A program made the position numbers and the translations under genes. The notes below the pieces were generated by a model. It had not been told where the DNA came from. It was given only the letters and a program-made list of their open reading frames with translations, and searched no databases. Shown here piece by piece: positions 37,053 through 40,497 of a stretch of DNA of 64,000 nucleotides (the first letter of the stretch is position 1; each line of letters opens with the position of its first letter). Source of the stretch: Planococcus antarcticus DSM 14505 (GTDB lineage: Bacteria; Bacillota; Bacilli; Bacillales_A; Planococcaceae); contig NZ_CP016534.2 in NCBI RefSeq assembly GCF_001687565.2, forward strand, positions 1,740,501 to 1,804,500. Direction: 5' to 3'.

Positions 37053-37334
37053 ATGACCCAAAAGAGACGCACATTTTCTGCAGAATTTAAAAAACAGGTG
37101 GTTGCACTGCACGCAGGTGGAAAAAGCCGGGTAGATATTGTCCGAGAATATGACCTAACGGCTTCCGCACTCGATCGATGGATTGCCCAATTCAATCGAA
37201 CGGGTTCATTCGAAGAGAAGGATAATCGAAGCCCGCTGGAGGCAGAATTACTTGCCTACAAGAAACGAAACAAACAGTTGGAGATGGAAGTGGATATTTT
37301 AAAGCAAGCAGCGCTGATCATGGGACGAAAATAG
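37053..37334 (+). CDS. IS3-family transposase OrfA
   Basis: A 93-residue DNA-binding protein: HTH (AEFKKQVVALHAGGKSRVDIVREYDLTASALDRWI) followed by a leucine-rich coiled coil (LLAYKKRNKQLEMEVDILKQA). TGAGGAG precedes the ATG. The stop lies in a CGA-AAA-TAG context, a plausible -1 slippage site leading into OrfB. Confidence 0.92.
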   Translation: MTQKRRTFSAEFKKQVVALHAGGKSRVDIVREYDLTASALDRWIAQFNRTGSFEEKDNRSPLEAELLAYKKRNKQLEMEVDILKQAALIMGRK

Positions 37335-37375
37335 AGATCATTCAACAGAATCAACACCTCTATTCGGTATCAGCA

Positions 37376-38197
37376 ATGTGTAATGTCCTGCAAATCGCTC
37401 GCAGTACTTTTTACTATGAAACGTCCGTTTCAGTAGAAAAAGAACGCCAAAAAGCTCGAGCAGAACAAGAATTAAAAGATGAAATCTGGGCAATCTTTCA
37501 TGAGAATCGCCGTGTCTATGGGACGCGTAAACTGAAAGAAGAACTGAAGATCAGAAAGAATTGGATCGTCTCGAGACGTCGTATTGGACGCCTCATGGCG
37601 ACACTTGGCATCCAATCGAAATACGCACTGCCTTCGTACAAGCCGATGGTTACGCCTCCTAACGAAGCAACGTATCGAAACGTATTAAACCGTGAATTCA
37701 ATCCAACAGAGAAAAGTGCCGTATTGGTTAGTGACTTAACGTACGTGAAGGTTGGCGGCCGGTGGAATTATATTTGTTTCCTTCTCGATCTCTATAACCG
37801 TGAAATTGTCGGGTACAGTCTGGGTGAGCGAAAAGACGCTGCTTTAGTTCAGCGTGCCTTCGCGACGGTCAAAAGCGACCTGGGAGCCGTGAACATTTTC
37901 CATACAGACCGTGGATCTGAATTTAAAAATGCCGGTATTGATGCCTTACTAGAGACGCATCAAATTGAACGGTCGCTGAGTCAAAAAGGAAACCCTTATG
38001 ACAATGCGGTGGCAGAAGCTACGTTTAAGATTCTGAAGACGGAACTGATCAACGGCATGCACTTTGAATCCCTTAATCAGCTATCACTTGAGCTATTTGA
38101 TTACGTCCATTGGTACAATCATATTCGTTTACACGGCAGCTTAGGCTACACCAGCCCTGTCACTTATCGAAACGCAGCCCTTAAAAAAGTTGTTTGA
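37376..38197 (+). CDS. IS3-family transposase OrfB (DDE integrase domain)
   Basis: The 273 residues from the first ATG include an N-terminal HTH_21 region (WAIFHENRRVYGTRKLKEEL) and the rve DDE core: Asp in LVSDLTYVKVG, Asp in HTDRGSEF, and Glu in NPYDNAVAEATFK. The frame stays open upstream to the end of orfA (KIEIIQQNQHLYSVSAM), so the active form is probably an OrfAB fusion made by -1 frameshifting. Intact. Confidence 0.92.
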   Translation: MCNVLQIARSTFYYETSVSVEKERQKARAEQELKDEIWAIFHENRRVYGTRKLKEELKIRKNWIVSRRRIGRLMATLGIQSKYALPSYKPMVTPPNEATYRNVLNREFNPTEKSAVLVSDLTYVKVGGRWNYICFLLDLYNREIVGYSLGERKDAALVQRAFATVKSDLGAVNIFHTDRGSEFKNAGIDALLETHQIERSLSQKGNPYDNAVAEATFKILKTELINGMHFESLNQLSLELFDYVHWYNHIRLHGSLGYTSPVTYRNAALKKVV

Positions 38198-38215: not shown

Positions 38216-38266
38216 AGATGGGGCATTTCTCGTACTACTATTTATCGGTATTTGGAAAAGAAGTAG
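38216..38266 (+). pseudogene. Last codons of a resolvase/invertase gene
   Basis: Directly after the IS the frame reads RWGISRTTIYRYLEKK-stop, the typical C-terminal helix-turn-helix of serine resolvases. All preceding sequence is replaced by the IS, so this is a remnant, possibly plasmid- or transposon-derived. Confidence 0.65.
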
Positions 38267-38305: not shown

Positions 38306-38556
38306 ACAAAAAAAAGCCTCTAACCGAAGTTAGAGGCTTATATATTTAGGGGGTTATTACCTGGGCGGCGTATCCAGGATCTCTGGTAACTCATCGTGAG
38401 CGCGTGGGGAACCTTTCCCACCTTAATAACCCTTCGTTACTAATTTCATTTGAGTAACACAGATAAATTTAATGGGTCTTCACAAACTTCCATGAGACTC
38501 GAAAAGTATTCGACCCACCATGGTCCGCATGATTAAGAGGCGTGATGGGTTCTGTT
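38306..38556 (-). ncRNA. Structured non-coding RNA candidate, family not recognised
   Basis: On the minus strand an extended -10 (TGTTATAAT, 38570-38562) is followed by about 250 bases without a long frame and a textbook terminator: AAGCCTCTAAC, UUCG tetraloop, complement, then about nine U (38339 to 38306). In between are several helices: ACCCATCA with TGGTGGGT; TCGAA with TTCGA; GTTACT with AGTAAC; and a multibranch domain closed by GGGTTATTA / TAATAACCC containing GTGGG/CCCAC, CTC/GAG and CCAG/CTGG hairpins. I checked by memory for SRP RNA, RNase P, tmRNA, T-box and common riboswitch signatures and saw none. 6S-type or raiA-type RNAs cannot be excluded. Confidence 0.6.
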
Positions 38557-38758
38557 CCTACCATTATAACATTGAGTTTCTTCTATTATATAGTCCTAAA
38601 CTGCAGCGACCTGTTTTATTGTTATCACTATAGAATAAACATCTATATGTTAATCCGGCAATAAGAGCTCAAAATTATCCAACTATACATTGACTAAAAA
38701 ATAAATTATTTTTTATTCCTGACCAAAGAAGAGGACAGAAAAAAGAAAAGTTGATTGG

Positions 38759-38815: not shown

Positions 38816-39160
38816 ATGAGAACAAATGAAGTAGTGATTGAAAAAGTAAAGATTTGGCTCCAAGAAAATGGGAAGTCCCATCAATGGTTAGCTGAAGAAC
38901 TAAACATAAGCAAAGCATTAGTTGGCCATATGCTGTCGGGTAATCGAACGATTCAACCAAAAAGAATCCCTGAGTTAGCAAAAGTACTTGGTTTGTCGGT
39001 GAACGAACTGATGGAAGACAGCTCTCTTAACTCAAAACGGTTGGTTGTCCAGTTGAGAGGAACAACGTCCAACCGACGCTCCAAGCAAGAAGTGGAAGAG
39101 TTGCTATTCGCAATTGAAGATTATCTTGGGTTGAAGCGTGGGCAAAAAAATGGATCGTAA
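38816..39160 (+). CDS. Xre-family transcriptional regulator
   Basis: A 114-residue protein with an N-terminal HTH_3 domain (WLQENGKSHQWLAEELNISKALVGHMLSGNRTI) and a charged C-terminal tail. AAAGGAGG precedes the ATG. It overlaps the ImmA/IrrE gene by 11 bases and lies behind a palindromic operator. Xre plus ImmA/IrrE pairs control mobile elements (ICEBs1 ImmR/ImmA), stress responses, or predicted toxin-antitoxin modules, the peptidase cleaving the repressor. Confidence 0.9.
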   Translation: MRTNEVVIEKVKIWLQENGKSHQWLAEELNISKALVGHMLSGNRTIQPKRIPELAKVLGLSVNELMEDSSLNSKRLVVQLRGTTSNRRSKQEVEELLFAIEDYLGLKRGQKNGS

Positions 39161-39893
39161 AAAACAGGCAGAAGCGATTGCAGAGGCGTTTGCAGCTGAT
39201 TTTTTAGAAGAAACCACTGCTAATGCGATATTTATTGGTTCACATATCGAACGAATACTCGCTAGTAAAGCAAAAGTGATTTACCAATATGTAGAAGATC
39301 CTACTTATTACGGGGCAGCCGTCAGTCACGAATCGGGAGCTCAATTTATCGCGCTCAATACGTTTCATCCGTTGCGGGTGCGGTATTTTACGGCAGCGCA
39401 TGAGCTTTGGCATTTGTCTGAAGCTAGCCAGTTACAGGACGAAGATTTTGATCACGAACGCGCAGCTGATCGCTTTGCCGCAGCAATCATGTTGCCGAAG
39501 GCAATAATGAAGGATTTATGGCTTCAGTTCAAGAAGTTATATGAGCCGAAAGAAGCCATTATTCTCATTGCAGATTTTTCGGAAGTTCCTTATGAAGCCG
39601 TGGTTCGTCGGTTGAAAGAATTAGGAATTTCCCTTATTGGAGTTTCCTTTACTGAAGAGGAATGGAAGAACGAACGAGTAAAGTTGGACTTGTCTGAGAG
39701 CACGTTAGATTTTCCGCAACCGTTTGAACGTTTTACCGCCTATGAGCACGTTGTCGAAGATGCTCTTGAAAAAGGAGTCGTTGATTCTTTGGCCGCATCC
39801 CATAAACTAAAGAAGTACAACAGCCAGTTGGCGAAAAAATTGCAGGAACAAGAAATGAAGCGTGTCGCAGAGGAAGAACAGCATGAAACGTAA
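39150..39893 (+). CDS. ImmA/IrrE family metallo-endopeptidase
   Basis: A 247-residue protein with the COG2856 zinc-protease motif HELWH (RYFTAAHELWHLSEA) and downstream Glu (DHERAADRFAAAIMLP). A C-terminal helical region rich in K and E follows. By analogy with ImmA it may cleave the adjacent Xre repressor. Its last codons overlap the start of the PIN-domain gene (ATGA-type overlap), so the three genes are one operon. Confidence 0.9.
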   Translation: MDRKKQAEAIAEAFAADFLEETTANAIFIGSHIERILASKAKVIYQYVEDPTYYGAAVSHESGAQFIALNTFHPLRVRYFTAAHELWHLSEASQLQDEDFDHERAADRFAAAIMLPKAIMKDLWLQFKKLYEPKEAIILIADFSEVPYEAVVRRLKELGISLIGVSFTEEEWKNERVKLDLSESTLDFPQPFERFTAYEHVVEDALEKGVVDSLAASHKLKKYNSQLAKKLQEQEMKRVAEEEQHET

Positions 39894-40497
39894 AGGCAAA
39901 GTGTTTATTGACGCCAATATGATCATTCATGCTGGAAGTTTTCAGAAGACGGATGTGTTCCAATGGTTGAATCAGTAATACGAAGAGATCTATGTTCATA
40001 TAGAAGTTCTAAAGGAGCTTCAGGTAGCATCGGTACGGAAAAAGGCAGACGAATTCATAGCGAGTGGGCAATGGATTTTGTTTGATCCGCAAGCAGAAAC
40101 ACTCGTCCCGACAGAAGAATTGTATGATTTGTATGTGATCTATCTTAGGGAAATGCGCGAGGCATTTTATCAGCTCGATGTAAAAAAAGAGGCTGAAGGA
40201 CGCCGATTGAAAAACACAAACGACCTTGGCGAAATTCACAGCTTAGCAGCCGCAATGCTCCTGAGTGCAGGAATCATTTGTAGCAATGACTTGGATATTC
40301 GTGAGGTCATTGAAGATGCCCCTATTTACATCACCGTTGAAGAGGACGAAGAAAGTGTGTTGATGGAACAAGATACACTGGAAGATTTTTGTTACTTTGT
40401 GATTTCACATGAAATTGCCGAACGAAGTATGGTGCGAAAATTCTTCAAAGCCATTCAACCGCAGAAGATTGGGAAATTCGATAGACGAATAACCTGA
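39883..40497 (+). pseudogene. PIN-domain protein broken by an in-frame TAA
   Basis: From the ATG at 39883 (MKRKGKVFIDANMIIHAGSF) the frame stops at TAA 39976-39978 after QWLNQ, then continues in the same frame to 40497. The PIN-type acidic residues are visible: Asp in FIDANMII, Glu in LGEIHSLAAA and Asp in CSNDLDI, so the original protein was probably a metal-dependent ribonuclease. A single base change (for example CAA to TAA) would restore it. No alternative start with a ribosome site is seen after the stop. In an Xre-ImmA-PIN operon this would be the toxin-like effector. Confidence 0.75.

Follow-up and report, generated by a model that had tools for sequence, protein, structure and literature searches.

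A predicted RNA of Planococcus antarcticus combining abiF-like and skipping-rope modules, and the linkage of skipping-rope RNA to PBECR nuclease genes

We analyzed a stretch of 64,000 nucleotides (nt) from Planococcus antarcticus DSM 14505 (NZ_CP016534.2, positions 1,740,501–1,804,500 of the forward strand; below, the window), focusing on a structured RNA of about 249 nt predicted on its minus strand, from approximately position 38557 to 38308. The 3′ part of this RNA is a complete skipping-rope RNA (Rfam family RF02924), and its 5′ part is a relative of the abiF RNA (RF03085). Elsewhere, skipping-rope RNA is linked to stand-alone PBECR3-type nuclease genes, which is the new observation of this study. 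Comparison of these loci suggests that skipping-rope serves as an RNA antitoxin to PBECR2/3 nucleases encoded by stand-alone genes, and we lean, somewhat beyond even odds, toward reading the window RNA as an orphan double antitoxin built of two antitoxin-type modules and acting in trans.

In the 5′ to 3′ direction of the minus strand, the RNA comprises an abiF-like hairpin, a CGAA/TTCG hairpin, a linker, the skipping-rope module, and a UUCG terminator:

38563..38571, minus strand: extended −10 element TGtTATAAT (TGnTATAAT type), by sequence
38513..38550, minus strand: abiF-like RNA module (ACCCAUCA...GGUGGGU stem); RF03085 below the cut-off, with DNA relatives
38500..38512, minus strand: short hairpin CGAA/TTCG, found in all three fused copies
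38432..38499, minus strand: linker, containing a GTTACT/AGTAAC hairpin (38436–38458)
38352..38431, minus strand: complete skipping-rope RNA (RF02924, Rfam), multibranch domain closed by GGTTATTA/TAATAACC
38308..38339, minus strand: intrinsic terminator, UUCG loop and T run, stem 38314–38339 (z-score −6.29; terminator scan); end of the RNA

The skipping-rope motif, reportedly described in a 2017 paper, is modeled in Rfam as 80 nt and typed as a small RNA gene, whereas in the window it makes up the 3′ portion of a longer predicted RNA, and here we propose a toxin as its partner. The match extends over the full model (positions 1–80 of 80), scores 68.3 bits against a cut-off of 36.7 (E-value 2.4e-14); the genome contains no other RF02924 match at E-values up to 0.001. 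The GGTTATTA/TAATAACC helix encloses several hairpins and varies in a paired manner among relatives: in 11 pairs of arms set by hand, the pair types differ at positions 1–6 and 8, and pairing is broken at position 4 in one of the 11, at position 6 in two, and at position 7 in five. An automatic covariance model built from a MAFFT alignment captured only five pairs and was not used. Rfam also shows a pseudoknot for skipping-rope, named in a figure legend of PMC7779021.

Transcription is predicted to start at about position 38557; in support of the −10, 11 of the 22 abiF copies listed have an exact TATAAT shortly 5′ of the module. For the 265-nt strand, the folding energy is −76.6 kcal/mol (z-score −2.60), and one of 200 shuffled sequences is equally good. 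When the modules are folded separately, the terminator is far beyond chance (z-score −6.29), the abiF and skipping-rope parts are moderate (−1.70 and −1.53, respectively), and the linker is not beyond chance (−0.74, 48 of 200 shuffles as good).

These data bear on a preliminary description of the locus, made from the sequence of the window, which had proposed an unrecognized, highly structured minus-strand RNA with its own promoter and terminator and at least seven helices, typical of riboregulators or ribozymes. The structured RNA with its terminator is confirmed, and the multibranch domain is present within 38306–38575 of the minus strand. The promoter holds as far as the extended −10 is concerned, but a two-hexamer sigma-70 scan found no promoter on the minus strand; likewise, the seven helices are not all conserved, since the linker hairpin is absent from the fused copy of genome G123 and the linker folds like its shuffles. 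The Rfam scan, named beforehand as the refuting test, overturned the label “unrecognized,” which is wrong for the 80 nt matched by RF02924 and largely wrong for the 5′ part, an abiF relative by DNA comparison that scores below the Rfam cut-off. A regulatory-type RNA agrees with the first of the suggested classes, but nothing seen points to a ribozyme. Ribozyme or riboswitch identity found no Rfam support, and Rfam matches to suhB/mmgR, sau-19, NsiR1, and SpF51 over the terminator were all below the cut-off.

Skipping-rope RNA adjoins stand-alone PBECR3-type genes

Skipping-rope RNA was found in 19 of 261 genomes of the family, in 17 of them above the cut-off, and a small PBECR open reading frame (ORF) or a piece of one adjoins 10 of these 19 loci (eight on the same strand with PBECR 5′ of the RNA, one convergent, L015, and one remnant, L011). 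Four of the PBECR examples exceed the cut-off of the Pfam family PBECR3 (PF18812). On the protein side, PF18812 occurs in 11 of the 261 genomes, of which 10 also have skipping-rope, nine of them side by side with it; in G063, PF18812 matches on a different contig, while the RNA is accompanied by a C-terminal piece, the gene being apparently split by an insertion. Fisher’s test for this co-occurrence, ignoring kinship of the genomes, yields 2.9e-12.

The same association is seen at the phylum level. PF18812 is found in 20 of 398 genomes, at 24 places (20 above the cut-off), representing 13 stand-alone genes, one of them split over two places, and six long proteins. Skipping-rope adjoins 12 of the 13 stand-alone genes and none of the three long proteins scanned, loci L171, L173, L177, L178, and L180 having been left out of the RNA scan. 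Among plasmids retrieved by similarity to the toxin protein, all 12 loci read (out of 23) carry skipping-rope above the cut-off; they include B. subtilis pTA1060, where the arrangement is convergent, plasmids of Enterococcus faecalis, Treponema, and Fusobacterium, and a Mycoplasmatota plasmid with the RNA placed before the PBECR gene. Three of seven phage records were read, of which L206 has skipping-rope and L217 and L222 end at the gene. The queries of these searches were proteins from RNA-linked loci; L203, L206, L208, and L209 were initially found as RNA matches and are listed by the protein searches as well, and the Planococcus plasmid L221, equal in length to contig G017:C3, is probably the same sequence.

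When the count starts from the RNA, a PBECR ORF or part of one lies within 1500 nt at 42 of 83 skipping-rope places. The 83 places are the 19 family loci and 64 of 72 pattern places, eight of the latter being excluded by eye as chance matches (L058, L060, L069, L072, L073, L078, L098, L108); L046 (no Rfam match) and L051 and L052 (no Rfam scan) were kept, and L038–L041 stand outside the count, with L041 showing by eye a PBECR-like gene before the RNA. The toxin–RNA linkage is retained in different hosts and gene orders; tandem, convergent, and RNA-first arrangements (the last in L215 and L067) all occur. The adjacency in 12 of 13 cases in the phylum, nine of 11 in the family, and 12 of 12 on plasmids thus points to skipping-rope as a probable RNA antitoxin of PBECR proteins. 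In the literature searched, we found no function stated for skipping-rope RNA and, among the matches listed, no link of it to a toxin.

The PBECR2/3 proteins are annotated as hypothetical, “spbA,” “plasmid-related,” or “dihydroorotate dehydrogenase,” and those adjoining skipping-rope include proteins labeled “spbA protein,” “plasmid-related protein,” and “PBECR2 nuclease fold.” The spb locus (spbA, spbB) presumably belongs to the B. thuringiensis plasmid pTX14-3, and a link of spbB to skipping-rope is an unverified lead. The label dihydroorotate dehydrogenase, given to the PBECR-like protein beside skipping-rope on an Enterococcus faecalis plasmid (L213:544–975), is probably a misannotation. 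A profile of the toxin had no match among PDB sequences, and Foldseek gave none below an E-value of 0.001; no ToxN or MazF structure stood among the 50 VIA entries listed, an absence that says nothing against such a fold. For the toxins tested, two proteins with PADLOC and four with NCBIfam, neither collection contains a model.

Similarly to type III toxin–antitoxin systems (ToxIN, CptIN, TenpIN), these loci, which occur on plasmids, phages, and chromosomes, pair a structured RNA and a predicted endoribonuclease, and the toxin gene recurrently adjoins the RNA gene, although not at the window locus. In contrast to these systems, the toxin is a PBECR protein (presumed BECR fold) and not ToxN, whose fold is MazF-like, and skipping-rope lies mostly 3′ of the toxin gene or convergent to it and is not a tandem-repeat array. 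The check for repeats covered the pattern copies; the only doublet among 71 pattern loci is L082 (2863 and 3371), whose skipping-rope-like copies are almost the same in sequence and lie 508 nt from each other, with no PBECR match within 1500 nt.

Several other copies lack a recognized PBECR neighbor. In three viral contigs of 115–129 kilobases (L042, L048, L054), skipping-rope lies among tRNA genes, in two of them with transfer-messenger RNA, and no PBECR match was found within 1500 nt of it; nor was a PBECR gene recognized, no profile search having been made, beside the copies of L038, L039, the satellite phage Javan99 (L205), and a B. licheniformis plasmid (L202). Counter-defense would be a sensible role for copies carried by phages. 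In L039 (930–1085 and 1107–1712, minus strand), a PemK/MazF-like gene comes first, then three hairpins, each beginning with ACGTCCCA, and finally skipping-rope; the hairpins match no Rfam family at the cut-off and may be a further RNA-antitoxin array. In Javan99 (L205:1356–1458), the Streptococcus small RNA SpF41 (RF02435) directly precedes the orphan skipping-rope.

The abiF-like module and the three fused copies

The 5′ module scores 26.7 bits with RF03085, that is, below the cut-off of 37. The stem and the GCCUCUUAA..AUGC core are common to it and to abiF RNA, represented by RCd22 of the C. difficile AbiF system; according to PMC12373285, abiF RNA is a tested RNA antitoxin and works in trans in C. 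difficile, and RCd22 has two motifs, compared to one in the window RNA. A DNA search with the module matched 122 of the 261 family genomes, many of them solely via a word of 20–30 bases 5′ of the −10, and relatives were classified from the 18 best DNA-matched loci (L113–L130). An Abi_2 gene stands directly 3′ of the abiF copy in four of them according to Pfam (L118, L121, L126, L128), and three of these four copies are above the Rfam cut-off. By eye, the remaining loci have an Abi_2 fragment (L119), a PBECR3 gene (L116, L124), a broken PBECR3 (L120), a fusion to skipping-rope (the window, G107, G123), or no recognized partner (seven loci). The RF03085 cut-off is passed by L120, L121, L124, L126, and L128, while L116 and L211 are just short of it and no match is listed at E-values up to 0.05 for L118 and the three fused loci. 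On plasmids, abiF copies L204 and L210 stand before genes annotated as Abi family, and L207 does not. A degenerate abiF pattern gave no match in the viral contigs.

Two relatives have the gene order abiF RNA–PBECR3–skipping-rope. A U run follows the stem in the four Abi_2 loci and in L120 and is missing in L116 and L124, where PBECR3 is open, and in the fused copies; its lack would let transcription run on. The window module differs from abiF RNA not only in its score but also in the missing U run and in the skipping-rope RNA that stands directly 3′ in place of an Abi_2 gene. The window genome has an Abi_2 gene without an abiF motif, as well as a second, decayed abiF copy at C1:2037985. In the other two genomes, abiF-like matches of 28.6 bits, below the cut-off, lie apart from the fused copies (L225, G123:C2:54758–54794; L226, G107:C35:19116–19151).

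All three fused copies belong to the genus, with the abiF module preceding skipping-rope. They agree in 33–35 of 38 positions of the abiF module and 71–72 of 80 positions of skipping-rope (87–92%), while the hairpin and linker together span 81 nt in the window, 34 nt in G123, and 90 nt in G107. The upstream flanks agree at 63 of 90 to 75 of 98 aligned positions (70–77%), so the contrast between modules and flank is moderate. The CGAA/TTCG joining hairpin keeps its pairing, one pair being G-C in the window, G-U in G107, and A-U in G123, and by eye the terminator stems differ at paired positions. Conserved modules and retained pairing, in these three sequences, argue for selection on both modules. 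On one side, all three copies are flanked by ImmA and PIN genes or by parts of these genes, an Xre ORF stands beside the RNA in the window and G123 and is not listed in G107, and the PF18812 search found no match in any of the three genomes. Within 1500 nt of the window skipping-rope, no PBECR match was found.

Proposed function and its alternatives

We propose that skipping-rope would be made beside the toxin gene and would silence the nuclease by binding it, in the way that ToxI and abiF RNA act on their own toxins. In the lineage of the fused copies, the toxin gene between abiF RNA and skipping-rope would have been lost and both RNA modules kept, joined by a variable linker, and the fused RNA would guard the cell in trans when incoming plasmids and phages bring toxins of the PBECR3 and AbiF types. 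We give an even chance to the general form of this proposal, namely, that skipping-rope is the antitoxin of an unnamed type III-like PBECR2/3 system spread over several phyla, small plasmids, and phages, with toxin-less copies in hosts and phages, some of them fused to abiF RNA, two-headed, and protecting against two unrelated toxins. If so, an Rfam family typed only as small RNA gains a function, PBECR2/3 proteins gain an RNA partner, RNA-antitoxin systems gain another toxin fold, and the fused orphan RNA becomes the RNA counterpart of multi-domain anti-defense proteins.

A number of observations weigh against this proposal. The strongest hint that the RNA is not tied to one toxin comes from several skipping-rope copies located behind YafQ, ParE, split Abi_2, or PemK genes; the RNA could thus travel with many different modules. 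Moreover, 41 of the 83 places lack a PBECR match within 1500 nt, in some cases because the sequence ends. No skipping-rope was found at PBECR3 loci L165 (191 amino acids) and L181 (genome G146), and among PF18812 matches below the cut-off it scores 40.5 bits at L174, where the filters of the phylum-level scan had passed it over, and 36.5 (just under the cut-off) at L176, and is not found at L175. At two small-plasmid loci, an ORF with HTH-like (helix-turn-helix) matches below the cut-off just before PBECR is another possible partner. With no PF18812 match in the window genome, there is nothing on hand for that antitoxin to counter. As for the fused copies, RF03085 gives 20.4 bits in G107 and no match at E-values up to 1 in G123, where the −10 is weakened to TACACT, and the support from the joining hairpin amounts to one pair changed on both sides in three copies.

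The main alternative, which we regard as possible but on the unlikely side, is that the locus is a remnant of an abiF RNA–PBECR3–skipping-rope module whose PBECR3 gene was lost and whose RNAs persist without function. It would fit the decaying surroundings (the cut recombinase, the stop in the PIN gene, the second decayed abiF copy), the abiF model scores of the fused copies, all below the cut-off or missing, and L120, where abiF RNA is followed by an apparently broken PBECR3. However, three species retain both modules at 87–92% identity while the linker ranges from 34 to 90 nt, the pairing of the joining hairpin survives changes, and the differences between terminator stems fall at paired positions. 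We consider it quite improbable that skipping-rope is a mobility or regulatory element (e.g., a serine recombinase site, or a PBECR substrate or cofactor) and that the window copy marks a site of toxin-cassette exchange. The variety of genes found before the same RNA (PBECR3, YafQ, ParE, split Abi_2, PemK) and of layouts would agree with this, as would a common recombinase family found nearby in six of the 83 contexts, but it is the adjacency to stand-alone PBECR genes, and not to the recombinase, that is nearly fixed (12 of 13), and the terminators and the conserved complex fold also speak against such a role. Finally, the composite RNA might regulate a resident protein in trans, e.g., the chromosomal Abi_2, and no longer serve mobile toxins. 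An Abi_2 gene is present in the window genome and in all seven other genomes of the genus searched, and the action of abiF RNA in trans in C. difficile (PMC12373285) provides a precedent; nevertheless, of eight Abi_2 loci (L133–L140), only L133 of G100 has an abiF motif, the L137 match with six mismatches being chance-like, and the skipping-rope half is left unexplained, which makes this option very improbable.

Neighborhood of the RNA in the window

The surroundings given in the preliminary description, a mobile-element junction and an Xre–ImmA–PIN cassette, were borne out. On one side, a transposase adjoins a serine recombinase of which the C-terminal end is left, and the cassette lies on the other:

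37053..38197, plus strand: transposase, presumably of the IS3 type (ORFs 37053–37334 and 37376–38197; rve and HTH_21 in the second ORF)
38219..38266, plus strand: serine recombinase remnant (C-terminal end), adjacent to the IS3-type element (by eye)
38816..39160, plus strand: Xre-type HTH protein, divergent neighbor (PF01381; PADLOC candidate PDC-M69A)
39138..39893, plus strand: ImmA/IrrE peptidase (PF06114; PADLOC candidate PDC-M69B)
39862..40497, plus strand: PIN gene with an in-frame stop, with a longer open copy in G123 (annotation of relatives)

The label “PIN domain” comes from the annotation of Lysinibacillus plasmid relatives, and the 139-amino-acid PIN piece has no Pfam match. At the place of the recombinase remnant, G086 and G088 have longer ORFs, as does G123, where the end differs, and plasmid L203 has a recombinase annotated at the same place.

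Just 5′ of the −10 (38573–38595, minus strand) lies GACTATATAATAGAAGAAACTCA, a word of 20–23 bases repeated, often exactly, across many genomes of the family. Some of its copies fall within a coding stretch (DYIIEETQ), others are intergenic or close to tRNAs, and the word may be a recombination or insertion target.
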